DNA of 33,788 nt from Ignavibacteriota bacterium (GTDB lineage: Bacteria > Bacteroidota > Ignavibacteria > Ignavibacteriales > Melioribacteraceae): contig PAAX01000025.1 of NCBI GenBank assembly GCA_002698995.1, forward strand, positions 1 through 33,788, read 5' to 3'. The notes below the pieces were generated by a model. The model ran no database searches. It had not been told where the DNA came from and saw only the letters and a program-made list of their open reading frames with translations. This document shows positions 1,270 to 33,782 of the stretch, in pieces. Position numbers and translations under genes: made by a program. Position 1 is the first letter of the stretch. Each line of letters starts with the position of its first letter.

Positions 1270-1444
1270 TTCATAATTTAAGATTGTTAAGACAAATATA
1301 ACCATTAAATATGAATTACTATCAAATTATCCTATATATATCAAATTTTGGAAAGAATAAAATGGTAATTCTTAGAAATAGGAAAGAAAATGAATTAATA
1401 AGGAAATAATTCTCCATTTCAATCGATAAATAAATCTTTATATA

Positions 1445-1460
1445 TGGCACATTCTTTGGT
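1445..1460 (+). promoter_or_regulatory. Candidate sigma-54 (-24/-12) promoter of the hydrogenase operon
   Basis: TGGCACATTCTTTGGT matches the sigma-54 consensus TGGCACGNNNNTTGCW. The -24 TGGCAC is perfect and the spacing is correct, but the -12 element reads TTGG instead of TTGC. Transcription would begin near 1470, leaving a leader of about 25 nt before the SD GAAGGGG and the ATG at 1495. This fits the chosen start of the first gene. A mismatch at the -12 C is a real weakness. No sigma-54 activator is encoded in the window. Confidence 0.4.
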
Positions 1461-1494
1461 AATTGATAGAATATCCAAAAATGAAGGGGCAATA

Positions 1495-1983
1495 ATGCAT
1501 CACAAAATATTTGAAAACTACCATTCAAAAGATAAAAGCAGTCTAATTGCATTACTTCAAGATGTTCAGGAAGTTTATGGGTATTTACCTGAAAAAGCGA
1601 TAAAAGATGTTGCGGAATTTGTAGGAATGCCGGTCAGTGGTGTTTATGGCGTAGCAACATTTTATAATCAGTTCAGGTTAACCCCGCTCGGAAAAAACAT
1701 TATTAGAGTCTGCCGCGGAACTGCTTGTCATGTTAAAAATTCAGCTAATATTTTAACTGCATTAGAAAATGAACTTGGAGTTAAATCGGGAGGAACAACA
1801 AGGGATAAGTTGTTTACTTTGGAAACAGTAGCCTGCATAGGTGCTTGTTCAATTGCTCCGGTTATAAATGTAAATGAAGATTATTTTGGTAGAATTGCAG
1901 TAAAAGATATTCCAAAAATTCTTCAGAAATACAAAAGTGAAGCAAAATTAGAAAAGAATACTATAGAAAAAATTAATGCGTGA
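1495..1983 (+). CDS. hydC: NuoE/HydC-like [2Fe-2S] thioredoxin-fold subunit of [FeFe]-hydrogenase, module 1
   Basis: This is a small electron-transfer subunit of a cytoplasmic multimeric [FeFe]-hydrogenase, equivalent to HydC/HndA/NuoE. It is 162 residues long, the usual size. An N-terminal helical domain contains GVATFYNQF, typical of NuoE. The thioredoxin-like [2Fe-2S] domain has all four ligands: C73 and C78 (CRGTAC), then C114 and C118 (CIGAC). I chose the ATG at 1495 because GAAGGGG lies just upstream. The upstream ATG at 1444 has no SD, adds 17 unrelated residues and overlaps the promoter-like element. The stop lies seven bases before hydB1, whose SD GAGGGG overlaps this stop codon. It is first in a long operon. 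The symbol is by role; hndA is equally possible. Confidence 0.9.
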   Translation: MHHKIFENYHSKDKSSLIALLQDVQEVYGYLPEKAIKDVAEFVGMPVSGVYGVATFYNQFRLTPLGKNIIRVCRGTACHVKNSANILTALENELGVKSGGTTRDKLFTLETVACIGACSIAPVINVNEDYFGRIAVKDIPKILQKYKSEAKLEKNTIEKINA

Positions 1984-1989
1984 GGGGAA

Positions 1990-3960
1990 ATGAAAAGCTT
2001 TTTAGAAATAAAAATTGATAACGAATTTCATTCACCTGAAAGCCCCAAGGGTGAATTTATAGCTCATTGTACTAATCCTTCACTCTCTCCTAACCAAGAG
2101 GGTGATATTGTGCAGTATAATAAGATGTTAAGATACGAAGTTCATGATAATCCGGTAATTTTTATTGGAATGGGAACCTGCGGTTTAGCTTCAGGTGCAG
2201 ATAAAGTTAAAGTAGCAATTGAAAATGAGTTGATAAAGAACAATATATTTGCCGAAATTATTCCAACCGGCTGTATTGGTTATTGTGCAAAGGAAGTAAT
2301 TGTTGATATTAAACTTCCAAACGGAGAAAGAATTTCATACTGTGAAGTAACCCCTAAAGATGTTCCTGCATTAATAAAAACAACATTGGTTGATAACGAG
2401 GTTTATCAAAAGAATTTACTCGGAAGCCACGGCGAAGGAAATGAAAATGTACCTAGATTAAATGATCTTCCTTTCTTCAGAAAACAGAAAAAAGTTGTAT
2501 TGGAAAATTGCGGTATTATAAATCCGACTTCAATTGATGAATATATAGCAAACGGCGGATTTAAGGCGTTAGATAAAGCAATTAGAATTATGAATCCCGA
2601 AGCTGTTGTAAATGAAGTATTAGAAAGCGGCTTAAGAGGAAGAGGAGGCGGAGGATTCCCAACCGGTAAAAAATGGCAGTTTGCTCATCAGCAGAAGAAT
2701 GATCAAAAATATATAATATGTAACGCAGATGAAGGTGATCCGGGAGCTTTTATGGATCGTTCAATCCTAGAAAGCGATCCATTTAGATTAATAGAAGGAA
2801 TGATAATCGGCGCTTATGCAATAGGTGCTAATTTCGGTTATATATACTGTCGTGCTGAATATCCTCTTGCAATTCAAAGATTAGAAAATACAATCAAAAA
2901 ATGTAAAGAATATGGATTGCTCGGTAAAAATATTTTAGGAAGCGGATTTAATTTTGATCTTAAGATAAAAAAAGGTGCCGGTGCTTTTGTATGCGGTGAA
3001 GAAACAGCATTAATCGCATCAATAGAAGGAAAGAGAGGAATGCCTTCTCCTCGTCCTCCTTATCCGGCTGTATCCGGCTTATGGGGTAAACCTACAATTA
3101 TAAATAATGTTGAGACACTTGCAAATATTCCAACGCTAATAAATAAAGGAGCAGCTTGGTTTTCTTCAATTGGTACGGAATCAAGTAAAGGAACAAAAGT
3201 ATTTGCAATATCAGGTAAAATTAAATACAGCGGACTTGTAGAAATTCCAATGGGAATTTCTTTAAGAGAAGTAGTATTTGATATTGCTGGTGGAATTCCA
3301 GATGGTAAAAAATTCAAAGCAGTTCAAATTGGCGGTCCTTCCGGTGGCTGTTTACCGGAAGAAGTTATGGATACTCCGGTTGATTATGAATCATTGAAAT
3401 CTGTCGGTGCAATGATGGGTTCCGGTGGATTTGTAGTAATGGATGAAGATACATGTATGGTTGATGTTGCTAAATATTTCTTAACATTCATTCAAAATGA
3501 ATCATGCGGAAAATGTGTTCCATGCCGTGAAGGAACGAAAAGAATGCTCGAAATAATTGAAAGAATTCCGAAAAAATATAATGGAGATAAATTAGAACAG
3601 CTCCAAAGATTTAAAGGAATTATTCACTTAAATAGATTAGCAGAAGTAATTAAAGATACATCATTGTGCGGATTGGGACAAAGTGCTCCAAATCCGGTTT
3701 TATCGGGATTAAGATATTTCAAAGATGAATATGAAGAGCATTTATTCGATAGAAAATGTAATGCCGGTGTTTGTAATGAGTTATTAACATTTACAGTTGT
3801 AGCTGAAAATTGCAGCGGCTGCGGATTGTGTGCGCGTAAATGCCCGAGTGAAGCAATTATTGGGGATAAAAAACAGCCTCATACTATAATTCAAGCTAAA
3901 TGTATAAAATGCGGTATGTGCGTAGAAACATGCCGATTCGATGCTATTTCTACAAACTAA
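1990..3960 (+). CDS. hydB: NuoF/HydB-like flavoprotein subunit of [FeFe]-hydrogenase, module 1
   Basis: This is the NAD(P)-binding FMN diaphorase subunit of a multimeric, possibly electron-bifurcating [FeFe]-hydrogenase (HydB/HndC type, 656 aa). Domains in order: an N-terminal thioredoxin-like domain (about 50-135; C64, C95, C99); the FMN/NADH-binding NuoF core with GLRGRGGGGFPTGKKW (214-229) and NADEGDPGAFMDR; an SLBB domain; the NuoF [4Fe-4S] site C506, C509, C512 and C560; a C-x4-C pair at C590/C595, a likely Zn site in HydB; and two C-terminal ferredoxin clusters (C608-C611-C614-C618 and C638-C641-C644-C648). The full complement is what bifurcating HydB proteins carry. GAGGGG sits only two bases from the ATG, which is close. 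hydA1 follows after 37 bases. Confidence 0.93.
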   Translation: MKSFLEIKIDNEFHSPESPKGEFIAHCTNPSLSPNQEGDIVQYNKMLRYEVHDNPVIFIGMGTCGLASGADKVKVAIENELIKNNIFAEIIPTGCIGYCAKEVIVDIKLPNGERISYCEVTPKDVPALIKTTLVDNEVYQKNLLGSHGEGNENVPRLNDLPFFRKQKKVVLENCGIINPTSIDEYIANGGFKALDKAIRIMNPEAVVNEVLESGLRGRGGGGFPTGKKWQFAHQQKNDQKYIICNADEGDPGAFMDRSILESDPFRLIEGMIIGAYAIGANFGYIYCRAEYPLAIQRLENTIKKCKEYGLLGKNILGSGFNFDLKIKKGAGAFVCGEETALIASIEGKRGMPSPRPPYPAVSGLWGKPTIINNVETLANIPTLINKGAAWFSSIGTESSKGTKVFAISGKIKYSGLVEIPMGISLREVVFDIAGGIPDGKKFKAVQIGGPSGGCLPEEVMDTPVDYESLKSVGAMMGSGGFVVMDEDTCMVDVAKYFLTFIQNESCGKCVPCREGTKRMLEIIERIPKKYNGDKLEQLQRFKGIIHLNRLAEVIKDTSLCGLGQSAPNPVLSGLRYFKDEYEEHLFDRKCNAGVCNELLTFTVVAENCSGCGLCARKCPSEAIIGDKKQPHTIIQAKCIKCGMCVETCRFDAISTN

Positions 3961-3997: not shown

Positions 3998-5725
3998 ATG
4001 ATTGAATTAACTATAAATAACATCAAGGTTAAAGCAGAAGAGGGAATGACAATTCTTGATGCTGCTAAATCAGTTGGAATTAAAGTTCCAACTCTCTGTC
4101 ATATGAAAGATTTATTCCCAACAGGAGCATGCAGAATTTGCGTTGTTGAAGTTGATGGAATGAAGGGACTTGTACCAAGCTGTGCTTTTCCGGTTTCAGA
4201 GGGAATGAAAGTAGATACAAATTCTCCTAGAGTAAGAAGATCGAGAAAAACTATTGTTGAACTTCTTATTGAAAATCATCCGCAGGACTGTCTGGTTTGT
4301 GTTAGAAACAAAAATTGTGAATTACAGGATTTATCTGAAAGATATAGTGTAAGAGAACATAGATTCAGCGGAGAAAAGAAAGATCATGCGATTGATATTT
4401 CAAGTGCATCAATGGAAAGAGATCCGGCTAAATGTATTTTATGCGGAAGATGCGTTAGAACCTGTAACGAAGTTCAGCAAGTTGGTGCAATCGATTTTAC
4501 AAACCGCGGATTTAAAACTAATGTAACTACTCCTTATAATAAAGGATTGAACGTAAGTGATTGTATTTTATGCGGACAATGTATTTTAGTTTGTCCTACT
4601 GCAGCTTTAAGAGAAAAGAGTCATGGCAAAGAAGTACAAAATGCAATAAATGACAAAAAGAAATTTACAGTAGCACAAATTGCTCCAGCTGTAAGAGCTA
4701 CTTTAGGGGAAGAGTATAATCTTCCTTTGGGTACAAATGTAACCGGACAATTAATAACCGGTTTAAGAAGATTAGGTTTTGATAAAGTATTCGATACAAA
4801 TTTTGCAGCCGATTTAACAATCTTGGAAGAAGCTACAGAATTAATTGACAGAGTTACAAACGGGAAAACACTTCCAATGTTTACAAGCTGCTGCCCTGGC
4901 TGGGTTAAATATATTGAACAAAACAGACCATCTCTTCTAAAGCATGTATCTTCTTGTAAATCACCTCATGAAATGGAAGGGGCTGTTTTAAAAACTTATT
5001 ACGCAAAGAAAATGGGACTTGATCCGAAAGATATTTATGTAGTTTCTATAATGCCGTGTACTGTTAAGAAATTTGAATCGAGCAGACCCGAATTATCTGA
5101 AAATCATATTAAAGATGTGGATGCAGTTCTAACTACAAGAGAATTAGTAAGGTTGTTCAAAATGGCCGGTATAGATTTTAATGATATCCCAGAAAGTGAA
5201 TTTGACAATCCTTTAGGTGAATCTACCGGAGCAGCTGCGATATTCGGTACAAGCGGTGGAGTTATGGAAGCTGCAGTTAGAACAGCTTATTATAAAGTAA
5301 CAGGTGAAGAGTTAGAAAACTTAGAACTTTCTGATATAAGGGGAATGAGCGGAATTAAAGAAAGTTCACTTGATTTAAAAGGAACTACTGTAAATGTTGC
5401 AGTCGTAAATGGAATTGGAAATGTAGATCAGATTTTGGATGAGATTGAACATGGCGAATCAAAATATCACTTTATAGAAGTAATGGCTTGCCCTGGCGGA
5501 TGTATAAATGGCGGCGGTCAGCCAATTCATCAAAAACCTGAAAAACTTAAGAAGAGAGTTGAAGCTTTATATACAATAGATAATAAGATGAAGAACAGAA
5601 GATCGCATGAAAATAAATCAGTACAAAAACTCTATGATGAATTTTTGGAATATCCTAATAGTCATAAGGCACATGAAATATTGCACACAACATATGTTGA
5701 TAGAAAAGCAATTTTAAATTCATAA
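3998..5725 (+). CDS. hydA: [FeFe]-hydrogenase catalytic subunit HydA1 (canonical H-cluster)
   Basis: This catalyses reversible H2 oxidation and proton reduction in the cytoplasm. Domains over 575 aa: plant-type [2Fe-2S] (C34, C45, C48, C62); His-Cys [4Fe-4S] (H94, C98, C101, C107); two [4Fe-4S] clusters (C146/149/152/156 and C189/192/195/199); the H-cluster domain; and a C-terminal small-subunit domain with RRSHENKSVQKLYDEFL. All three H-cluster motifs are canonical: L1 TSCCPGW (shuttle C298, ligand C299), L2 MPCTVKKFE (C354) and L3 MACPGGCINGGGQP (C498, C502). These ligands are each one position lower than the ones I recall for Clostridium CpI. A strong SD (GGAAGGAG) precedes the ATG. It forms module 1 with hydC and hydB upstream. 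No signal peptide or Tat motif is seen. Confidence 0.96.
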   Translation: MIELTINNIKVKAEEGMTILDAAKSVGIKVPTLCHMKDLFPTGACRICVVEVDGMKGLVPSCAFPVSEGMKVDTNSPRVRRSRKTIVELLIENHPQDCLVCVRNKNCELQDLSERYSVREHRFSGEKKDHAIDISSASMERDPAKCILCGRCVRTCNEVQQVGAIDFTNRGFKTNVTTPYNKGLNVSDCILCGQCILVCPTAALREKSHGKEVQNAINDKKKFTVAQIAPAVRATLGEEYNLPLGTNVTGQLITGLRRLGFDKVFDTNFAADLTILEEATELIDRVTNGKTLPMFTSCCPGWVKYIEQNRPSLLKHVSSCKSPHEMEGAVLKTYYAKKMGLDPKDIYVVSIMPCTVKKFESSRPELSENHIKDVDAVLTTRELVRLFKMAGIDFNDIPESEFDNPLGESTGAAAIFGTSGGVMEAAVRTAYYKVTGEELENLELSDIRGMSGIKESSLDLKGTTVNVAVVNGIGNVDQILDEIEHGESKYHFIEVMACPGGCINGGGQPIHQKPEKLKKRVEALYTIDNKMKNRRSHENKSVQKLYDEFLEYPNSHKAHEILHTTYVDRKAILNS

Positions 5726-5737
5726 AAGAAGATTAAT

Positions 5738-7732
5738 ATGACAGCGGGAATTGTAAGTACAATTGGGCAGAAATGCAAAAGATGCTATTCATGCATTCGA
5801 GAATGTCCCGCCAAAGCAATTAGAGTTATCAACGGTCAAGCCGTTGTTATTGAAGAAAGATGTATAAGCTGCGGACACTGCGTAAAAGTATGTTCGCAGC
5901 ATGCTAAAAATACTCTTTCTGATGTTGATAAAGTATTGTATGATCTTCTCCCTTCACATAATACAGTTGCAGTTTTAGCTCCTTCATTTGTAGTATCTTT
6001 CCCTGAAATCTATCCAAAAGTAATTTCTGCATTGCGAAAAATTGGATTTAAGCAGGTTGTAGAGGTTGCATTTGGAGCTGACTTGGTTGCAAAGTATTAT
6101 GAATCATATTTTGAAAAAGAGAATTTTGATAAGACCATTATTAGTTCTCCATGTCCCGCAATATTCAATTTTATAGAAAAATATTATGTTGATTTGGTTC
6201 CTAATATTGCAGAGGTTGTTTCTCCAATGGTTGCAATTGGGAGATACTTAATGAAGAATTATGGCTCTGATACAAAAGTTGTTTTTATTGGACCTTGTAT
6301 TGCAAAAAAGGATGAATATAAAGATGATGAAGTTCATGATGCCATTGATTCAGTAATTACATTTATTGAATTAAAAGAAATATTTGAACTGCTTCATATA
6401 GAATTAGAATCATTAGAAGATTCATCTTTCGATCCCCCTTATTCTTTCTTGGGCAAATCATTTCCATTAACCGGTGGTTTATTAAAAACAGCCAATATTA
6501 ACAATGATATCCTTGAGAAAAAAGTAATTATAGTTGATGGTAAAGATAAAGCAGAAGAAATAATTGTAGATATCTTTAAGAATAAAATCAAAAATAAGTT
6601 TGTTGATATTCTCTTCTGTGAAGGATGCATAAATGGTCCTGCAATTGATTCCGATATGAATTACTATTCCAAAAGAGAAGCGCTAATTGATTACATTGAA
6701 TCGAATAATCCTCATATCGATAAACAAATTTGGATGAGTGAAATTTATAACAATAGAGATCTTGATCTGTCAAGAAAATTTAGACCAAATAACCAACGCA
6801 GACCAATGCCTTCGGAAGAAAAGATTAGAGAAATTTTAGCCAGAACAAATAAGTTCAATCCGGAAGATGAATTGAACTGTGGAAGCTGCGGTTATCCAAC
6901 TTGCAGAGAATATGCAGTTGCAATTGCTAAAGGACTTGCAGAAGAGGATATGTGTCTTAATTATTTAATTGATAGGCTTGAAACGGCATACAGCGAACTC
7001 AAAAATGCACAAGAGCAGCTGCAGAGTGCAGAAAAGCTTGCTTCTATAGGTCAGCTTGCAGCTGGTGTAGCACATGAAATTAATAATCCTTTAGGAACAA
7101 TAATGTTATATGCTAATATGCTTATTAGAGATGTTCAAAAGAAAGGATGTAATACAAATATTCAAGATATTCAAACAATAATTGAAGAAGCTAATCGATG
7201 TAAAAATATCGTATCAAATTTATTGAATTTTGCTCGGCATGGTAAATTAAAACTTGCTAAGACAAACATTCACAAAATACTTGAGATGATTGTAAAAGGA
7301 ATAAAACTAAAAGAAGAAAACAGCGATATAATAATTAACATAAATAACAATTCGGAAGTTTTAGAAATAGAAGGTGATTCCGATCAGCTTAAACAGGTTT
7401 TTATAAATTTAATTTCTAATGCTGTAGAATCACTAGAATTTAGTGTTATAAAAAATATCAACATTAATTTAAGAAATGATGAGAATAATTTAATAGTAGA
7501 TATAATAGATACCGGATGCGGTATTCCTCAAGAAAATATGAACATGTTGTTTACTCCATTCTTTACTACAAAAAAAATGGGAAGAGGAACCGGCTTAGGT
7601 TTAGCGATATCATACGGTATAATTAAAATGCATAAAGGGGATATCAAAGCTAAAAGCAGCATTGATCATGGTTCTACTTTTACGGTTAAGCTCCCTATAA
7701 AACTGAATATTACAAAAACAAATATGAACTAA
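5738..7732 (+). CDS. Hydrogenase-like sensor histidine kinase (ferredoxin + H-cluster domain + Fe-S + kinase)
   Basis: This is a cytoplasmic sensor kinase whose input is a degenerate [FeFe]-hydrogenase. Domains over 664 aa: two ferredoxin [4Fe-4S] clusters (C13/16/19/23 and C42/45/48/52); an H-cluster domain (about 75-330) with L1 SSPCPA (C139), L2 GPCIAKKDE (C187) and L3 FCEGCINGP (C294, C297); a PF04060-type Fe-S site (C381, C384, C389, C406); a short coiled coil; HisKA with phospho-acceptor H446 in GVAHEINNPLG; and HATPase_c with DTGCGIP and GRGTGLGL. The proton-shuttle Cys position is Pro, and L3 is CxxC instead of CxxxC, as expected for a sensory rather than catalytic enzyme. It probably senses H2 or redox state and phosphorylates a neighbouring receiver. 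There is no membrane segment. Confidence 0.9.
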   Translation: MTAGIVSTIGQKCKRCYSCIRECPAKAIRVINGQAVVIEERCISCGHCVKVCSQHAKNTLSDVDKVLYDLLPSHNTVAVLAPSFVVSFPEIYPKVISALRKIGFKQVVEVAFGADLVAKYYESYFEKENFDKTIISSPCPAIFNFIEKYYVDLVPNIAEVVSPMVAIGRYLMKNYGSDTKVVFIGPCIAKKDEYKDDEVHDAIDSVITFIELKEIFELLHIELESLEDSSFDPPYSFLGKSFPLTGGLLKTANINNDILEKKVIIVDGKDKAEEIIVDIFKNKIKNKFVDILFCEGCINGPAIDSDMNYYSKREALIDYIESNNPHIDKQIWMSEIYNNRDLDLSRKFRPNNQRRPMPSEEKIREILARTNKFNPEDELNCGSCGYPTCREYAVAIAKGLAEEDMCLNYLIDRLETAYSELKNAQEQLQSAEKLASIGQLAAGVAHEINNPLGTIMLYANMLIRDVQKKGCNTNIQDIQTIIEEANRCKNIVSNLLNFARHGKLKLAKTNIHKILEMIVKGIKLKEENSDIIININNNSEVLEIEGDSDQLKQVFINLISNAVESLEFSVIKNININLRNDENNLIVDIIDTGCGIPQENMNMLFTPFFTTKKMGRGTGLGLAISYGIIKMHKGDIKAKSSIDHGSTFTVKLPIKLNITKTNMN

Positions 7733-10083: not shown

Positions 10084-10557
10084 ATGCTGGTTTTAGAAAA
10101 AAATGCCATAACCGAAGAGATTGAAGAATCAATAAAACTTCATGGCAATAATAGATCTGCTCTTATTCCAATACTTCAAGATATTCAAAGAAAGCACAGC
10201 CATATTTCTGATTTTGCTCAACAAGAAGTAGCAAGATTATTAGATATTCATCCCGTAGAAGTTTATTCCGTCGTCTCCTTCTACGCATTTCTAAACACTA
10301 AGCCAAAAGGAAGAAACATTGTTCGTTTATGCCAAACAATAACATGTGATCTTCAAGGAAAAGCTGCAATTGCAAAAGCAATTGAGAGAGAATTAAACTG
10401 CAAATTTGGTGAAACTACTCAAGATAAAAAGTTCTCGCTTGAATTTGCCAACTGTTTAGGAATGTGCGATCAAGGTCCGGCTATGATTGTGAATGATAAA
10501 GTATATTCACATTTAACACCGGAAAAAGCTGTCCAAATATTAAGTAATATTAAGTAG
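10084..10557 (+). CDS. NuoE/HydC-like [2Fe-2S] subunit, module 2
   Basis: A second NuoE-type electron-transfer subunit, 157 aa. The helical N-terminal domain contains VYSVVSFYAFL, and the thioredoxin-like domain has C83 and C88 (CQTITC) and C124 and C128 (CLGMC), a complete [2Fe-2S] set. It is clearly a diverged paralogue of the 1495 gene rather than a recent copy. AGGGGGTG lies upstream of the ATG. It is followed after nine bases by a NuoF-like gene and then a HydA-like gene, repeating the order of module 1. It most likely serves the HydA2 complex; exchange of subunits with module 1 is possible. Confidence 0.92.
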   Translation: MLVLEKNAITEEIEESIKLHGNNRSALIPILQDIQRKHSHISDFAQQEVARLLDIHPVEVYSVVSFYAFLNTKPKGRNIVRLCQTITCDLQGKAAIAKAIERELNCKFGETTQDKKFSLEFANCLGMCDQGPAMIVNDKVYSHLTPEKAVQILSNIK

Positions 10558-10566
10558 GAGAAAACA

Positions 10567-11772
10567 ATGACGACTAATAAACAAAAAAGAGAAGGTGCTG
10601 TAATTTTCTCTGAATACGAAAGAGGAAGTGCCATCAAAAAAGCTCTTTCTATGGGAAGAGATGATATACTTTTTGAATTGCGTGAATCAAAATTAAAGGG
10701 AAGAGGGGGAGCTGGATTTCCTACTTCTACTAAATGGATGCTTGTTGCAGCAGCAAAAGCTGAAGAGAAGTATTTAATTTGCAATGCCGATGAAGGTGAA
10801 CCCGGTACATTTAAAGATAGAGTTCTACTTCTTGAATATCCTGAATTAGTTTTTGATGCTATGGTTGTTGGAGGTTACACTTTAGGTGCAAAACATGGCG
10901 TTGTATATTTACGCGGTGAATATGAATATATGAAAAAATCTCTGGAAGATTACTTGGAAGCAATGAGAAAAGATAATCTTCTTGGAAATAATATCTTAGG
11001 AAAAGAAGGATTTAATTTTGACATTAGTATTTTCTTAGGATCAGGAGCTTATGTATGCGGTGAAGAGACTGCATTAATTGAATCGATGGAAGGACAAAGA
11101 GGTGAAGCCCGCAACAAACCTCCTTACCCGGTTAATACAGGATTTATGGGAATGCCTACTGCTGTTAATAATGTAGAAACTTTAGCTGCCGTTTCTCATA
11201 TTGTAGTTAAAAGCGGAGCTTGGTTTAAGCAGCATGGTACTGATAAATCAACCGGTTCTAAATTGTTGTCAATTTCAGGTGACTGTAAAAAACCCGGAGT
11301 TTATGAATTGCCTTGGGGAACTAAAATTTCTGAATTACTTGAACTGGTTGGAGCTGAAAATACTAAAGCAGTTCAAGTTGGCGGTGCATCGGGAATATGT
11401 CTTTCAAGATCAGAATTTGATAGAACTTTAGCTTATGAAGATGCTGCAACCGGCGGATCAATAATGATATTTAATGAAAACAGAGATATGTTGAAAGTTC
11501 TAAAAAACTTCATGGAATTCTTTGTTGAAGAATCATGCGGACAATGTACACCTTGCAGAATTGGTAATGTTAAGCTTCTTGAAGGTATTGAAATGATAGA
11601 AAGAGGTGAATATACTTTCTCATATATTAAGAAACTTAAGGATCTTGGTAATACAATGAAAGTTGCTTCCAAATGCGGGTTAGGGCAGTCAAGTCCAAAC
11701 TCATTCATATCAATTCTTGATAATTTTAGCGATGAAATATTTAATAATGTAAACGGAGGCAGCCATGCATAA
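10567..11772 (+). CDS. Minimal NuoF-like FMN diaphorase subunit, module 2
   Basis: A 401-aa NuoF homologue with an FMN/NAD(H) core: KGRGGAGFPTSTKW near residues 44-57, NADEGEPGTFKDR and the CGEETALIESMEGQRG loop. An SLBB domain and the [4Fe-4S] site C324, C327, C330 and C370 follow. Unlike the 656-aa HydB1 it has no N-terminal thioredoxin domain and no C-terminal ferredoxin or Zn site, so its electron routing must differ. The SD GTAGGAG precedes the ATG. Its end overlaps the start of hydA2 by eight bases, which implies translational coupling and a tight HydA2 partnership. Candidate roles are NAD(P)H-linked oxidoreduction with HydA2; nucleotide specificity is not evident. Confidence 0.92.
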   Translation: MTTNKQKREGAVIFSEYERGSAIKKALSMGRDDILFELRESKLKGRGGAGFPTSTKWMLVAAAKAEEKYLICNADEGEPGTFKDRVLLLEYPELVFDAMVVGGYTLGAKHGVVYLRGEYEYMKKSLEDYLEAMRKDNLLGNNILGKEGFNFDISIFLGSGAYVCGEETALIESMEGQRGEARNKPPYPVNTGFMGMPTAVNNVETLAAVSHIVVKSGAWFKQHGTDKSTGSKLLSISGDCKKPGVYELPWGTKISELLELVGAENTKAVQVGGASGICLSRSEFDRTLAYEDAATGGSIMIFNENRDMLKVLKNFMEFFVEESCGQCTPCRIGNVKLLEGIEMIERGEYTFSYIKKLKDLGNTMKVASKCGLGQSSPNSFISILDNFSDEIFNNVNGGSHA

Positions 11773-13681
11773 AAAAGAAGAATTAAGAGCTCCGGTAAGT
11801 CAAAAACCTCACGTAGTTGAAAAACCAGAAAATATAGATACTATTGGGGGAACAGTAACTCTTGAATTAAATGAGAAAAAAGTAACTGTTCCGTTAGGTA
11901 CTACAATTTTAGATGCTTGTAAAGAAAACAATATTCATATACCAACTCTATGTCATCACGAAGATTTATGTGTTGCCGGTGTATGCAGACTTTGCGTTGT
12001 TGAAGTTGAAGGAATGAGAACACTTCAAGCATCATGTGCTTATCCTATTACATCTCCAATTAAAGTTCATACATCCACTCCAATGGTTCGTCAAGCAAGA
12101 AAACATATAATCGATTTATTAATAAGCGAACATTACGGTGAATGTTATTCATGTTTTAGAAATAACAATTGTGAATTACAATCATTAGCAAAAGAATATG
12201 GTGTTGATCATTATAATTTCGGTCATATCGAAAAACCTAGATATGAAGTTGATAAATCGTCATACTCGGTTATTAGAGATATGGATAAATGTGTACTTTG
12301 CAAAAGATGTGTAAGAACATGTATTGATCTTCAAGAAGTTGGTGTGCTTGAAGCTGTGGGAAGAGGAGATCAAACTAGAATAAGTACATTTTTAGATAAA
12401 CCATTAGCTGATGTAGTATGTATAAATTGCGGACAATGTATAAACCGCTGTCCAACCGGGGCATTAAGGGCTAACGATCCTAGAGATGAAATATGGGAAG
12501 CAATTGATGATCCTAAAAAGCATGTTATAATTCAAACAGCACCATCACCTAGAGCTGCAATAGGAGAAGAATTTGGACAGGAACCTGGTTTATCATATAC
12601 AAAAGAAATGACTACAGCTTTAAGAAGAATTGGTTTTGATAAAGTATTCGATACAAACTTTACAGCTGATCTTACAATTATGGAAGAAGGGACTGAATTA
12701 ATTTTACGATTATATAAAGCTCTTGTTGAAAAAGATAATTCTGTTAAAGTACCTCAATTTACTTCTTGTTCTCCGGGCTGGGTAAAATATTTAGAGCATT
12801 TCTATCCAGAATATATAGACAATTTAAGCTCTGCAAAATCACCACAGCAGATGTTTGGTGCATTGATCAAAACTTATTATGCGGAAAAGAATGGTATAAA
12901 TCCTGAAGATATAGTATCTGTAGCTTTAATGCCTTGTTCAGCTAAAAAGTTTGAATGCAACAGACCTGAAATGCACGACTCCGGCTTTAAAGATGTTGAT
13001 TATGGTTTGACTACAAGAGAGTTAGCACAAATGATTAAAGAAGCCGGAATATTTTTGCCTGAAATGCCAAAGAGCAATTTCGATAATCCATTCGGCGAAG
13101 CATCAGGTGCCGGACTTATATTTGGTGCTACAGGTGGAGTTATGGAAGCAGCAATAAGAACTGTATATGAATTGATAACAGGAAAGAATGTAGAAGATTT
13201 CTTCGAAAATATGAATGTTACACCTGTTAGAGGTTTTGAAGGAGTTAAATATGCAGAACTTCCGATAACAGAAGTTGGACCAGTACCCGACATTTTAAAA
13301 CCATTAGTTCCAAATTGGGATTGGGTTAAAGGAGCAACTCTAAAAGTTGCAGTAGTTCACGGAACAGCCAACGCTAAAAAGGTTATGGAAGATATTAAAG
13401 CCGGTGGTAAATTTAGTGAATGTCATTTTATTGAATTTATGGCTTGTCCTGGCGGATGTTTAGGAGGCGGCGGTCAGCCAATTCCAACAAACAAAGAAAT
13501 AAGAGCAAAAAGAGCTCAAGCTATTTATAATGAAGATGAATCTTTAACTCTTAGAAAATCACACATGAATGAAAATGTATTGAGATTATATGAAGAATTT
13601 TTACCTGAAGGACCTTGCAGTCATAAGTCTCATAAACTCTTACACACTCATTATACCGAAAGAGGAAAATACATAGCATAA
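11765..13681 (+). CDS. [FeFe]-hydrogenase-like subunit HydA2 with Ser in the L1 motif (TSCSPGW)
   Basis: A 638-aa M3-type [FeFe]-hydrogenase homologue. It has about 30 extra N-terminal residues, then [2Fe-2S] (C63, C74, C77, C91), His-Cys [4Fe-4S] (H123, C127, C130, C136), two [4Fe-4S] clusters (C176/179/182/186 and C219/222/225/229), the H-cluster domain and the small-subunit tail (RKSHMNENVLRLYEEFL). L2 MPCSAKKFE (C391) and L3 MACPGGCLGGGGQP (C561, C565) are normal. L1 reads TSCSPGW: C335 is the proton-shuttle position, and S336 replaces the Cys that ligates the H-cluster [4Fe-4S]. The codons act-tct-tgt-tct-ccg-ggc-tgg are unambiguous. It may be an active variant, a tuned-potential enzyme or a non-catalytic electron-transfer or sensing subunit. 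GGAGG precedes the ATG. Confidence 0.92.
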   Translation: MHKKEELRAPVSQKPHVVEKPENIDTIGGTVTLELNEKKVTVPLGTTILDACKENNIHIPTLCHHEDLCVAGVCRLCVVEVEGMRTLQASCAYPITSPIKVHTSTPMVRQARKHIIDLLISEHYGECYSCFRNNNCELQSLAKEYGVDHYNFGHIEKPRYEVDKSSYSVIRDMDKCVLCKRCVRTCIDLQEVGVLEAVGRGDQTRISTFLDKPLADVVCINCGQCINRCPTGALRANDPRDEIWEAIDDPKKHVIIQTAPSPRAAIGEEFGQEPGLSYTKEMTTALRRIGFDKVFDTNFTADLTIMEEGTELILRLYKALVEKDNSVKVPQFTSCSPGWVKYLEHFYPEYIDNLSSAKSPQQMFGALIKTYYAEKNGINPEDIVSVALMPCSAKKFECNRPEMHDSGFKDVDYGLTTRELAQMIKEAGIFLPEMPKSNFDNPFGEASGAGLIFGATGGVMEAAIRTVYELITGKNVEDFFENMNVTPVRGFEGVKYAELPITEVGPVPDILKPLVPNWDWVKGATLKVAVVHGTANAKKVMEDIKAGGKFSECHFIEFMACPGGCLGGGGQPIPTNKEIRAKRAQAIYNEDESLTLRKSHMNENVLRLYEEFLPEGPCSHKSHKLLHTHYTERGKYIA

Positions 13682-29851: not shown

Positions 29852-30475
29852 TTACCCTTCATTTACATTTGAAAAAAGATAAAGCATCTCTCTGCCAATT
29901 TCTTCAAATCTTTCTTTATACATCTTTGCTTCCAAATCAGTATTATCATATTCCTTCGGATCTTTATAGCGTATAGGAAATCTTGCTTCAGCACCAAAAA
30001 CAACTGGACAATTTTCATCCGCATCCGAGCATGTCATTATTGCGGCAAAATTATTCTGGGGATTAAATTCATCATTATAAACTTTTGAAAAACATATCAA
30101 AGGTTCTTTTTCATCAGAATACTTTACTAAGTATAACGGATTGCCGCTATTATCTTTTTGAATAATTTCATATCCATAATCTCTAATTGCATTTACTGCT
30201 CTGGGATTAAAAGCTGTTGCTTCTGTTCCGCCGGAAAAACATTTAACATTTTCTATTCCATAATATTCGGCTGCTGTTTGTCCCCATATTTGTCCCATAT
30301 GACTTCTTCTGGAATTATGTGTACAGATAAAATTTAGATTAACTTCATCACCGGCTTTTACTTTTTCGGATATATATCGGGCAAGTTCATTTAATAATTC
30401 CTTTCGTTCATTAGAAATTAATGCGAAAGTATCATTTAATTTTATAATGTTGTTTTCTATTTCCTTAATCACCAT
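29852..30475 (-). CDS. arsC: Arsenate reductase, low-molecular-weight phosphatase (thioredoxin-coupled) type
   Basis: This cytoplasmic enzyme reduces arsenate to arsenite for export. It is 207 aa, with about 45 residues ahead of the catalytic core, longer than the Staphylococcus pI258 type. The active site is CTHNSRRS with nucleophile C51. The two relay cysteines C149 and C156 (CSDADENC) have the same seven-residue offset as C82/C89 of pI258 ArsC, supporting thioredoxin-linked reduction rather than plain phosphatase activity. The general-acid region is RYKDP. It starts 18 bases after the acr3 stop and is third in the arsenic operon. Confidence 0.92.
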   Translation of the reverse strand: MVIKEIENNIIKLNDTFALISNERKELLNELARYISEKVKAGDEVNLNFICTHNSRRSHMGQIWGQTAAEYYGIENVKCFSGGTEATAFNPRAVNAIRDYGYEIIQKDNSGNPLYLVKYSDEKEPLICFSKVYNDEFNPQNNFAAIMTCSDADENCPVVFGAEARFPIRYKDPKEYDNTDLEAKMYKERFEEIGREMLYLFSNVNEG

Positions 30476-30493
30476 AAATAAATTCCTTTTAAG

Positions 30494-31579
30494 TTACGGA
30501 CAAACATTTGGAGATTTAATATCAGCTTCTGCCACATTTCCTTTAAAGTATTTTTTCTGAAACCACAAAGCTACATTTACAAGAGCTATTAAAACCGGAA
30601 CTTCTACTAAAGGACCGATTACAGCCGCAAATGCTTCACCGCTGTTAATACCGAATACTGCTATTGCAACAGCTATTGCCAGTTCAAAATTATTACTTGC
30701 CGCAGTAAAAGAAAGTGTTGTTGTTTTTGAATAATCTGCACCAATCTTTTTTCCCATATAGAATGATACAAGAAACATTATTACAAAATAGAGGAGAAGA
30801 GGAACTGCAATTCTAACTACATCTAAGGGAATCTTTATTATATATTCTCCCTTAAGTGAAAACATAACTAATATTGTAAAAAGTAATGCTATTAATGTTA
30901 GGGGACTAATACGCGGTATAAATTTCTTCTCATACCATTCTTTAGATTTATATTTTAATGCAAGATACCTTGTTATCATTCCGCCAATAAAAGGGATACC
31001 CAAATAAATAAAAACACTTTCGGCTATTTGTCCGATTGTAATATCTACTGCAAATGTCTGCAATCCCAGCCACTCTGGTAAAATTGTTAAAAAGAGATAA
31101 GCATAAAGAGAAAAGAAAAGGACTTGGAAAATAGAGTTAAATGCTACAAGACCGGCTGCATATTCGGTATCTCCTTTAGCTAATTGATTCCAGACAATAA
31201 CCATAGCTATGCAGCGTGCAAGTCCAATTAAAATTAATCCGGCCATATATTCCGGGTAATCTTGCAAAAACAATACTGCAAGAGCAAACATCAACAAAGG
31301 TCCAATTAACCAGTTTTGAACAAGTGATAAAACGAGAATTTTTACATTTCTAAAAACATCAGGGAGTTCTTCATATTTTACTTTTGCTAAAGGGGGATAC
31401 ATCATAAGGATTAACCCGATTGCTATTGGGATATTTGTAGTTCCAACACTAAATGAATCCCAGAAAACTGCAACGGAAGGAAATAAATGCCCAGAAAAAA
31501 CACCGATAAACATTGCGGTAAAAATCCACAATGTTAAATACCTGTCTAAAAATGAAAGTTTCTTAGTTATTCCGCTCAT
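30494..31579 (-). CDS. acr3: ACR3-family arsenite efflux permease
   Basis: A 361-aa inner-membrane exporter of arsenite, with about ten hydrophobic segments. Diagnostic features are [20 protein letters not shown] sequence holding the essential Cys (C123), [14 protein letters not shown], and [17 protein letters not shown] with the conserved Glu near the end. The family is ACR3 (BART superfamily), not ArsB. The neighbours are ArsR upstream and ArsC downstream. A 72-base gap from arsR holds an ArsR-like dyad at 31627-31646, which may allow separate control. The start [16 protein letters not shown] has GGATATC-type spacing but a weak SD. Confidence 0.94.
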
Positions 31580-31626
31580 TTGATATCCTTAATTAAAGAG
31601 AAACAATAATTTTTATATTTATTCTT

Positions 31627-31646
31627 TATTCGATAAGTAACGAAAT
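31627..31646. promoter_or_regulatory. Candidate second ArsR operator, upstream of acr3
   Basis: TATTCGATAAGTAACGAAAT matches the stronger dyad at 32001-32020 at 14 of 20 positions, including the complete right arm CGAAAT and central TTCG. It lies between the arsR stop and the acr3 start, in the right place to repress an internal promoter. Confidence 0.45.
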
Positions 31647-31651
31647 ATAAA

Positions 31652-31993
31652 CTACTTGCAAACTATATTTCTATCTACTTTCAATAATATTTCAGAATCT
31701 TTTTTAATAATTGAATCATCACCAATCCAAAAATCTAATGAAGATAATAATGCAGAAATTCTTTGATCTTTTGGAGTTGGATTGATTTGATAATTAACCC
31801 ATCTTCCTTCTTTTTGCTCAGTAATAAAGCCGTTCTCCTTTAAAATACTTAAATGTTTTGAAACAGTAGAAGCAGCCAAATTAAGAACTGCAGTAATTTC
31901 ACAAACACATAAATGTTTTCTTTGAAGCATTTTAAGAATTCTTAAACGATTCATATCCGATAAGGCTTTAAATATTTTTGTATTCTCTGTCAT
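31652..31993 (-). CDS. arsR: ArsR/SmtB-family arsenic-responsive repressor
   Basis: A 113-aa winged-helix repressor that leaves DNA when arsenite or antimonite binds. The metalloid site is HLCVCEI (C29, C31) at the start of the recognition region, the E. coli/R773-type ELCVCDL position. The helix-turn-helix is AASTVSKHLSILKENGFI, followed by the wing QKEGRWVNY. A further Cys sits near the C-terminus (IVCK) and could be a third ligand. It leads the arsR-acr3-arsC operon, and a palindromic site lies eight bases before its ATG, implying autoregulation. Confidence 0.93.
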   Translation of the reverse strand: MTENTKIFKALSDMNRLRILKMLQRKHLCVCEITAVLNLAASTVSKHLSILKENGFITEQKEGRWVNYQINPTPKDQRISALLSSLDFWIGDDSIIKKDSEILLKVDRNIVCK

Positions 31994-32630: not shown

Positions 32631-33782
32631 TCATTACTTAATCTGACAACTTCAATTGTAAGTTACATATTAAGTGTAAGATTATAACCAATCATTTTAT
32701 TCTTAGCCATGTGCTTTGTTTGTAAAAACGTTTCCATAGGTGTTCTACCGTCACAGTGTTTACCAGAATGCGGTCTTTGTTGATTGTAATGATTAATCCA
32801 AAGATCAACATCATTTTGTAATTCTTCAAGAGTTTTGTAAACTTTTTTTCTGAAGGCAATTTGATAAAATTCATTCAGTATCGTTTTATGAAAGCGTTCA
32901 CATATCCCATTTGTCTGTGGATGTCTAGCCTTGGTTTTACTATGGTCGATATTTTCAACAGCAAGATAAAGCTCATATTCATGATGTTCTGGTCTTCCAC
33001 AATACTCTGTACCTCTGTCGGTTAATATTCTCAACAGTGGTATTGCTTGATCTTCATAAAACGGTATTACTCGATCATTGAGCAAATCTGCTGCTACAAG
33101 TGCGTTCTTACGGTCATAGAGCTTTACGTGAGCTACTTTAGCATAAGTATCAATAAATGTTTGCTGATAGATTCTCCCAACTCCTTTAAGGTTTCCAACG
33201 TAGTAAGTGTCCTGTGCTCCTAGATAGCCAGGATGTTCGGTTTCTATTTCGCCGTGAGCTTCTTTGGTTTCTTTGCGTCTTTCCATGGCTACTAATTGAG
33301 CTTCCGTTAATATTAAATTCTCTTTTGCCATTTTCTCTTCAAGCTTTAACAGACGTTTATTAAAGGTCTCTATATTATGTCTTAACCAAATATTTCTTAC
33401 TCCTCCCGGGGAAATTAATATTCCTTGTTTCTTCAATTCATTTGATGCTCTTTGTTGACCATAGGCTGGATATTCTACTGCCAGGGTTACTACTGAGGCT
33501 TCTACTTCTTCTGATACTCTGTTTTTTAGGTTTGGTTTCTTTCGACTTATTTCTAGTAAGGCTGACTCTCCTCCTTCTTCATATAGTTTCTTAAATCGAT
33601 AGAAACTATCTCGGGAATATCCAAATATTTTACAAGCTCTGCTTACATTACCCAAATGGTTTGATAATTCTAGTAAGCCTATTTTGTTTTTTATTACTTT
33701 TTCTTCTGTACTCATCTGACTTCTCCTTCTGTTATTCTAATTTATCATCTTTTTTACAGAAGTGTCAGATTATATCATGACT
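32629..33782 (-). mobile_element. IS481-family insertion sequence with imperfect terminal inverted repeats
   Basis: The left end (32629-32648) AGTCATTACTTAATCTGACA and the reverse complement of the right end (33763-33782) AGTCATGATATAATCTGACA agree at 17 of 20 positions. They enclose one transposase gene. The size, about 1.15 kb, suits IS481. The conservative boundary is the inner ten-base TAATCTGACA (32639 to 33772). A target-site duplication cannot be verified: only six bases follow the right end, and they do not match the left flank. The element interrupts the gene beginning at 32208. Confidence 0.8.
32663..33715 (-). CDS. IS481-family DDE transposase
   Basis: A 350-aa transposase with an N-terminal helix-turn-helix (NVSRACKIFGYSRDSFYRFKK), then EYPAYGQQRASNEL, and an rve integrase core. 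The acidic residues are D169 (GAQDTYYVG), D233 (LTDRGTEYCG) and E273 (NGICERFHKT), followed by NHYNQQRPHSG and GRTPMETF, the usual IS481 tail. The frame is intact, with GGAGAAG four bases before the ATG, so the element may still be mobile. It fills the IS between its terminal repeats. Confidence 0.95.
   Translation of the reverse strand: MSTEEKVIKNKIGLLELSNHLGNVSRACKIFGYSRDSFYRFKKLYEEGGESALLEISRKKPNLKNRVSEEVEASVVTLAVEYPAYGQQRASNELKKQGILISPGGVRNIWLRHNIETFNKRLLKLEEKMAKENLILTEAQLVAMERRKETKEAHGEIETEHPGYLGAQDTYYVGNLKGVGRIYQQTFIDTYAKVAHVKLYDRKNALVAADLLNDRVIPFYEDQAIPLLRILTDRGTEYCGRPEHHEYELYLAVENIDHSKTKARHPQTNGICERFHKTILNEFYQIAFRKKVYKTLEELQNDVDLWINHYNQQRPHSGKHCDGRTPMETFLQTKHMAKNKMIGYNLTLNM

Follow-up and report, generated by a model that had tools for sequence, protein, structure and literature searches.

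A serine at one H-cluster cysteine position of HydA2, a predicted NADH-dependent [FeFe]-hydrogenase of an Ignavibacteriota bacterium, is a common natural variant

In the textbook H-cluster of [FeFe]-hydrogenases, there are four cysteine ligands. Cys300 of CpI is named in passages of PMC4284687 as a position involved in H-cluster coordination, and the same passages describe its replacement by serine as commonly observed in HydA fragments from Great Salt Lake and Guerrero Negro, screen the L1 motif as TSC(C/S)P and suggest, already in 2014, that the serine coordinates and may stabilise an oxidised state when O2 is present. According to passages of PMC3787301, two of the three trimeric hydrogenases of the Melainabacterium ACD20 have TSCSPGW in place of TSCCPAW. 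The structure 7Q4V is given in a passage of PMC10671435 as an Fe hydrogenase of Acetobacterium woodii, the HydABC of which is described in parts of PMC6288185 and PMC11208171 as a bifurcating hydrogenase that works reversibly and oxidises H2. PMC11208171 places two hydrogenases in this genome, HydABC and the HDCR subunit HydA2. For Melioribacter roseus, passages of PMC3534657 report three [FeFe]-hydrogenases (Mros0634, Mros2482 and Mros2488), two of which are close in gene numbering, and H2 detected among the fermentation products. A literature search, which mostly did not reach subscription papers, found no test of the 2014 proposal on serine coordination and O2, and no match for C300S or C170S together with hydrogenase and H-cluster.

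The window analysed here is a stretch of 33,788 nucleotides of contig PAAX01000025.1 from an Ignavibacteriota bacterium, and it contains two hydrogenase gene sets:

1444..1983, + strand: hydC1, NuoE-like subunit
1990..3960, + strand: hydB1, long subunit of 656 aa with C-terminal 2x[4Fe-4S]
3998..5725, + strand: hydA1, paralogue with the canonical TSCCPGW (4883-4903)
5738..7732, + strand: HydS-like sensor between the two gene sets (H-domain, FeS and histidine kinase)
10084..10557, + strand: hydC2, NuoE-like [2Fe-2S] thioredoxin-like subunit
10567..11772, + strand: hydB2, short NuoF-like subunit of 401 aa without C-terminal 2x[4Fe-4S]
11765..13681, + strand: hydA2, [FeFe]-hydrogenase catalytic subunit of 638 aa, Ser type (open reading frame, PF02906, TIGR02512/NF040763 and PDB match)
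12761..12781, + strand: L1 motif TSCSPGW of HydA2, residues 333-339 (alignment to references)
12824..12844, + strand: LSSAKSP of HydA2, proton-path Ser (CpI S319) retained, Ala at CpI 321
12929..12958, + strand: L2 of HydA2, MPCSAKKFEC, Cys ligand (CpI C355) retained, extra Cys398 at CpI position 362
13436..13480, + strand: L3 of HydA2, FMACPGGCLGGGGQP (CPGGC), Cys ligands (CpI C499 and C503) retained

HydA2 matches PF02906 in a profile search (E=2e-87) and passes both the group A [FeFe]-hydrogenase model TIGR02512, with 486 bits against a cut-off of 406, and NF040763 ('NADH-dependent [FeFe] hydrogenase, group A6'), with 814 bits against 765. HydA1 is likewise over the cut-off for both models and, therefore, NF040763 cannot separate the two paralogues and leaves the question of an NADH-only reaction unsettled. 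The best PDB match of HydA2, at 626.8 bits, is 7q4v_A, 'Iron hydrogenase HydA1', the L1 of which is also TSCSPGW. From its name, we take this chain to be the catalytic subunit of A. woodii HydABC. Given that it also has a serine in L1, four cysteines are unsound as a defining feature of group A. The references of the Cys type read TSCCPSW (8a6t, presumably T. kivui), TSCCPAW (7p5h, presumably T. maritima) and TSCCPGW (CpI), and the L1 of HydA2 fits the natural C300S variant pattern TSC(C/S)P(G/A/S)W, with Ser.

The first-pass annotation had reported TSCSPGW in HydA2 against TSCCPGW in HydA1, at 12759-12782; the codons are as reported and the exact span is 12761-12781. Cys335 (codon TGT, 12767-12769) aligns to the shuttle cysteine C299 of CpI and Ser336 (codon TCT, 12770-12772) aligns to C300. 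The alignment of HydA2 with four reference hydrogenases has no gap across L1, which places Ser336 on C300 and shows that no cysteine is supplied one residue away, a possibility that the annotation had raised against itself. Of the four ligand positions of the [4Fe-4S]H cluster, three are cysteine in HydA2 and the one in L1 is serine. The claims that the shuttle cysteine and the cysteines of L2 (MPC) and L3 (CPGGC) are kept, and that the change is specific to the ligand position and not part of a general decay, also hold in the alignment, where the shuttle cysteine and the proton-path residues (CpI C299, E279, S319 and E282) are all present and the remaining residues of the cluster and proton path are intact.

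Other features of the window and its surroundings were noted on the way. The stretch between E282 (CpI numbering) and L1, at 12698-12760 of the window, is 20-22 residues long in the HydA2 clade, and has 15 residues in 95 of the 130 rows outside this clade and its near outgroups. The HydS-like sensor has SSPCPAI as its L1, with Pro at the shuttle cysteine and Cys at the ligand position, which is the mirror of HydA2, and its L3 is CEGCINGPA. Another H-domain protein of the HydS sort adjoins a third HydA (L003) on contig C19. Towards the contig end, at 29852-31993 and 32663-33715, translations point to arsenate-reductase-like, ACR3-like transporter and ArsR-like genes, followed by a transposase-like open reading frame.

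Relatives were collected by similarity to HydA2. Matches at E <= 1e-60 occur in 51 of 395 genomes of the source phylum, 25 of 282 in the phylum of G395 and 48 of 294 in that of G396. Among the best 80 of 283 loci, most are titled Ignavibacteria, Melioribacter or Bacteroidetes, the other titles being Planctomycetota, Hydrogenedentota, Sumerlaeota and Armatimonadota. From 279 candidate open reading frames, 276 matched a reference over at least 400 aa, and the 241 distinct ones among these were counted, the rest being dropped beforehand; with 4 references, the alignment has 245 rows, which stand for distinct sequences rather than genomes, given that the two source collections overlap. The alignment count replaced a search for L1 by regular expression, which had missed L087, L091 and L108 (all TSCSPGW) and had taken a spurious string in 7 open reading frames.

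Of the 241 natural sequences, 156 have Ser and 85 have Cys at position 300 (157 and 88 in the 245 rows with references), and no third residue occurs. This Ser fraction is not that of all HydA, since sampling by similarity to HydA2 over-counts Ser: none of the sample is centred on Bacillota, and A. woodii, T. kivui and C. pasteurianum are present as reference rows only. The cysteines C299, C355, C499 and C503 are conserved in 245 of 245 rows, and E279, E282, S319, S323 and K358 are likewise invariant. In the HydA2 clade, Ser occupies position 300 in 107 of 107 rows, HydA2 itself being one, and just outside it a single Cys row (L210) lies amid Ser sisters. The Ser-type L271 reads TSCSSGW, with the proline that follows the serine also substituted. 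That the change would be rare or new is thus not borne out, given 156 Ser among 241 sampled HydA and a variant already published in the passages of PMC3787301 and PMC4284687.

A sequencing or assembly error, or a recoded codon, could in principle stand behind Ser336, and the one-base difference between TGT and TCT is all that speaks for it. The 107 distinct clade rows with Ser show that Ser336 is not a sequencing slip, and the codons of the 156 natural Ser rows belong to both serine families (TCG 60, TCA 47, TCT 27 and TCC 12, that is 146 TCN, and AGC 10), which leaves this explanation with a negligible probability. A tree of 136 representatives, made by a quick method with column 300 excluded and with SH-aLRT support only, requires 7 changes between Ser and Cys, 6 of which are forced by well-supported branches. 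The pattern looks like long conservation with repeated interchange and not like decay.

Taken together, we favour, with a probability of roughly 0.7, the reading that HydA2 serves as the catalytic subunit of a HydA2-B2-C2 [FeFe]-hydrogenase that depends on NADH and is probably non-bifurcating, and in which Ser336 is a normal inherited residue; the complete H-cluster, the turnover of H2 with NAD(H) and the cubane held by serine are the inferred parts of this reading. HydA2 would contain the whole H-cluster and use NAD(H) in the turnover of H2; three cysteines and the serine oxygen, or three cysteines and a site shared by serine and water, would bind the [4Fe-4S]H cubane, and the exchange of a thiolate for serine would shift the potential of [4Fe-4S]H.

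From the alignment, the serine probably replaces one thiolate ligand in HydA2. The strict use of Cys or Ser at this position, with all else in place, points to a side chain that is capable of acting as a ligand, which makes ligation of one cubane iron by the serine oxygen the likeliest arrangement, with a three-cysteine cluster and a water held by the serine as the main alternative. Serine is a weaker Fe-S ligand than cysteine, and its hydroxyl could hold a water, so that one cubane iron might carry only water or hydroxide, which would tune the potential or act as a switch, while the serine is not bound to iron. We consider this unlikely, given that no Ala, Gly, Thr or Asp is found at position 300 in the 241 natural sequences.

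It was also considered that another cysteine takes the role of the fourth ligand, at CpI position 362 or 491 in HydA2 and at 321 in A. woodii. All 107 rows of the HydA2 clade have Cys at position 362, seven residues past the L2 ligand, and 100 of the 107 have it at position 491, against fractions of 0.05 and 0 in the Cys type. Nonetheless, among the 50 other Ser-type rows, 38 have Ala at position 362 and 7 have Cys, and the extra cysteine is, therefore, not general to the Ser type. Position 321 is Cys in 47 of these 50 rows and in 78 of the 88 Cys-type rows; as it is Ala in 103 of the 107 rows of the HydA2 clade, the cysteine of LSSCKSP was ruled out as the substitute ligand of HydA2. A search for alignment columns that switch together with Ser, with 1260 tests of low power over 6 independent pairs, gave nothing usable, and no residue state was consistent (at best 2.8 of 6 pairs with and 3.1 of 6 against). 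A substitute cysteine is, for these reasons, decidedly improbable, and ligation by the serine oxygen remains the preferred arrangement.

The reaction of the complex can be approached from HydB. Passages of PMC7311640 give as criteria for a bifurcating HydB the residues Ala/Glu-x-Met, Phe and GGPSG with extra [Fe-S] domains, and for a non-bifurcating NADH-dependent HydB Thr/Ser-x-Lys/Ser/Ala, Tyr and the absence of GGPSG. With the T. maritima HydB positions of that paper matched to the motifs by eye, the Phe/Tyr position being the least certain, HydB2 reads GTFKD, GAYVC and GGASG, which is the non-bifurcating signature, and HydB1, mapped in the same way, reads GAFMD, GAFVC and GGPSG, the residues of the bifurcating type. 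By these signatures, its 401 aa and the absence of the C-terminal 2x[4Fe-4S], HydB2 differs from the HydB of bifurcating HydABC. Where the upstream HydB could be read, it is non-bifurcating in 97 of 97 cases in the HydA2 clade and in 2 of 2 in the nearest outgroup; in the 5 other Ser-type cases and the 9 Cys-type ones it is always bifurcating, as it is in one row with a misread L1. From the HydB2 signatures and this clade-wide pattern, we predict that HydA2-B2-C2 is an NADH-only H2 enzyme encoded beside a bifurcating one.

A general tie between the serine and bifurcation, or its absence, was ruled out, as Ser is found with both HydB types. Given that the Ser-type HydA of A. woodii belongs to a bifurcating complex and that a HydB of the bifurcating type accompanies 5 of the 104 Ser-type HydA for which HydB could be read, the serine by itself does not predict the reaction.

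The first-pass annotation had asked whether TSCSPGW marks a clade in which a canonical partner is never missing, and had proposed that HydA2 may not turn over H2. Partners were examined in 48 genomes, 43 of which have a group A HydA, the L1 of each HydA in a genome being read until the first Cys type or until all were done. The Ser type stands alone in 12 of the 43 (G047, G070, G078, G113, G306, G318, G144, G176, G353, G172, G192 and G310), so a canonical partner is not always present; in the remaining 31 the Cys type is present too. The maturase HydG is over the cut-off in 8 of the 12 Ser-only genomes and in 20 of the 31 with both types (Fisher p=1); the 5 genomes that lack HydA have no HydG over the cut-off. 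HydF is also over the cut-off in 7 of the 8 Ser-only genomes with HydG, the eighth being G310, with 309 bits against a cut-off of 325.6. In these 8 genomes every PF02906 match is a Ser-type HydA, which leaves these HydA as the only known clients of the maturases there. The full-length HydS sensor of the window, searched against ten Ser-only genomes, gave no H-domain match at E <= 1e-30.

These counts bear on the possibility that HydA2 is a non-catalytic paralogue, or one for electron transfer only, in which the serine marks the loss of H2 chemistry. HydG and HydF are indeed absent from some Ser-bearing genomes, with neither over the cut-off in the Ser-only G113, G318, G144 and G176, and no HydG match was found in six further Ser-type genomes of the class (G039, G116, G074, G089, G240 and G014). 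In such genomes, maturation of the enzyme may not follow the known route. However, HydG is missing in 11 of the 31 genomes with both types and in 4 of the 12 Ser-only genomes (Fisher p=1), and this similar absence indicates that it does not track the serine. The 8 Ser-only genomes that keep HydG with no other H-domain protein, the A. woodii enzyme, which works according to the passages cited above, and the invariance of all other active-site residues checked also stand against a non-catalytic HydA2, which we regard as improbable. As an A. woodii enzyme with the same motif works and Ser-only genomes exist, a HydA2 without H2 turnover appears unlikely, and a catalytic HydA2 remains the favoured reading.

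HydG is below the cut-off in 15 of the 43 genomes with a group A HydA (G031, G051, G120, G128, G152, G180, G212, G259, G263, G290, G369, G113, G318, G144 and G176), where the HydG protein of the source genome finds at best weak matches, of 1e-12 or worse. The listed completeness of these 15 genomes is 99-100%, and G120, G128 and G290 are single contigs. HydF is present in G128 and G290 despite the absent HydG, and HydG is also missing in G347 (Cys type), G402 and G406. The HydA genomes without HydG may have either another maturation route or enzymes that work without the full H-cluster. G176 has one additional H-domain protein (92 bits) and G113 an H-domain fragment close to its HydA. In G144, which has no HydF over the cut-off, a short HydF-like match (134 bits, profile positions 3-171) lies in an open frame of 186 aa at C13:25032-25535, within L167, approximately 3 kb before hydA2.

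The observation of a serine at this position is confirmed, and its explanation is largely ordinary and already in print. Serine at one ligand position is common and stable among the relatives of a predicted NADH-linked enzyme, and a strict L1 motif risks mislabelling Ser-type genes as broken. What remains of interest is the serine ligation proposed in 2014 (in passages of PMC4284687) together with a neat natural pair of HydA1 and HydA2, which is well suited to testing how a single ligand tunes the H-cluster. We suggest only tentatively that a serine-ligated H-cluster is a regular alternative to the Cys form, exchanged at least six times in the sample and found with a non-bifurcating HydB in the HydA2 clade, in which the serine oxygen would tune the potential of [4Fe-4S]H. 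If so, HydA1 and HydA2, encoded approximately 6 kb apart, would form a Cys/Ser pair provided by nature, and their H-cluster potentials would differ.

Among the known systems, the closest is A. woodii HydA1 (PDB 7q4v, 7q4w and 8a5e), which has the same TSCSPGW and can be aligned with HydA2 over residues 31-635. It differs from HydA2 at CpI position 321 (Cys against Ala in HydA2) and at 362 (Val against Cys), and in the tree it falls outside the HydA2 clade, at the end of a long branch of unsure placement. Its complex is described in passages of PMC6288185 and PMC11208171 as bifurcating, whereas that of HydA2 is predicted to be non-bifurcating. For HydB2, the likeness is to Syntrophomonas wolfei Hyd1ABC and Syntrophus aciditrophicus HydAB, which have the non-bifurcating NADH-dependent signature in passages of PMC7311640; this likeness covers HydB, and the S. 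aciditrophicus HydB differs from HydB2 by a fused gamma-like part. The Great Salt Lake and Guerrero Negro sequences of PMC4284687 are PCR fragments, likened to HydA2 here by their published description, and some of those from Great Salt Lake have, according to its passages, a large insertion just upstream of L1, where the loop of HydA2 is also longer. According to the passages of PMC3787301, the two Ser-type HydA of ACD20 have Ile for the cysteine of motif 3, whereas HydA2 retains its L3 cysteine. For M. roseus, the passages of PMC3534657 liken all three enzymes to the bifurcating T. maritima enzyme and do not mention the serine; assembled genomes under this title (L044, L054 and L064) hold HydA with TSCSPGW and with TSCCPGW at one locus, as in the window. 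The first-pass annotation had allowed that TSCSPGW could turn out to be a common, already characterised active variant, and in the main this is so, since A. woodii HydA1 has the same motif and its HydABC oxidises H2 in the passages cited. The serine of HydA2 is, thus, a common natural variant that is already published; it does not mark HydA2 as broken or unique, and HydA2 is most likely a working enzyme.
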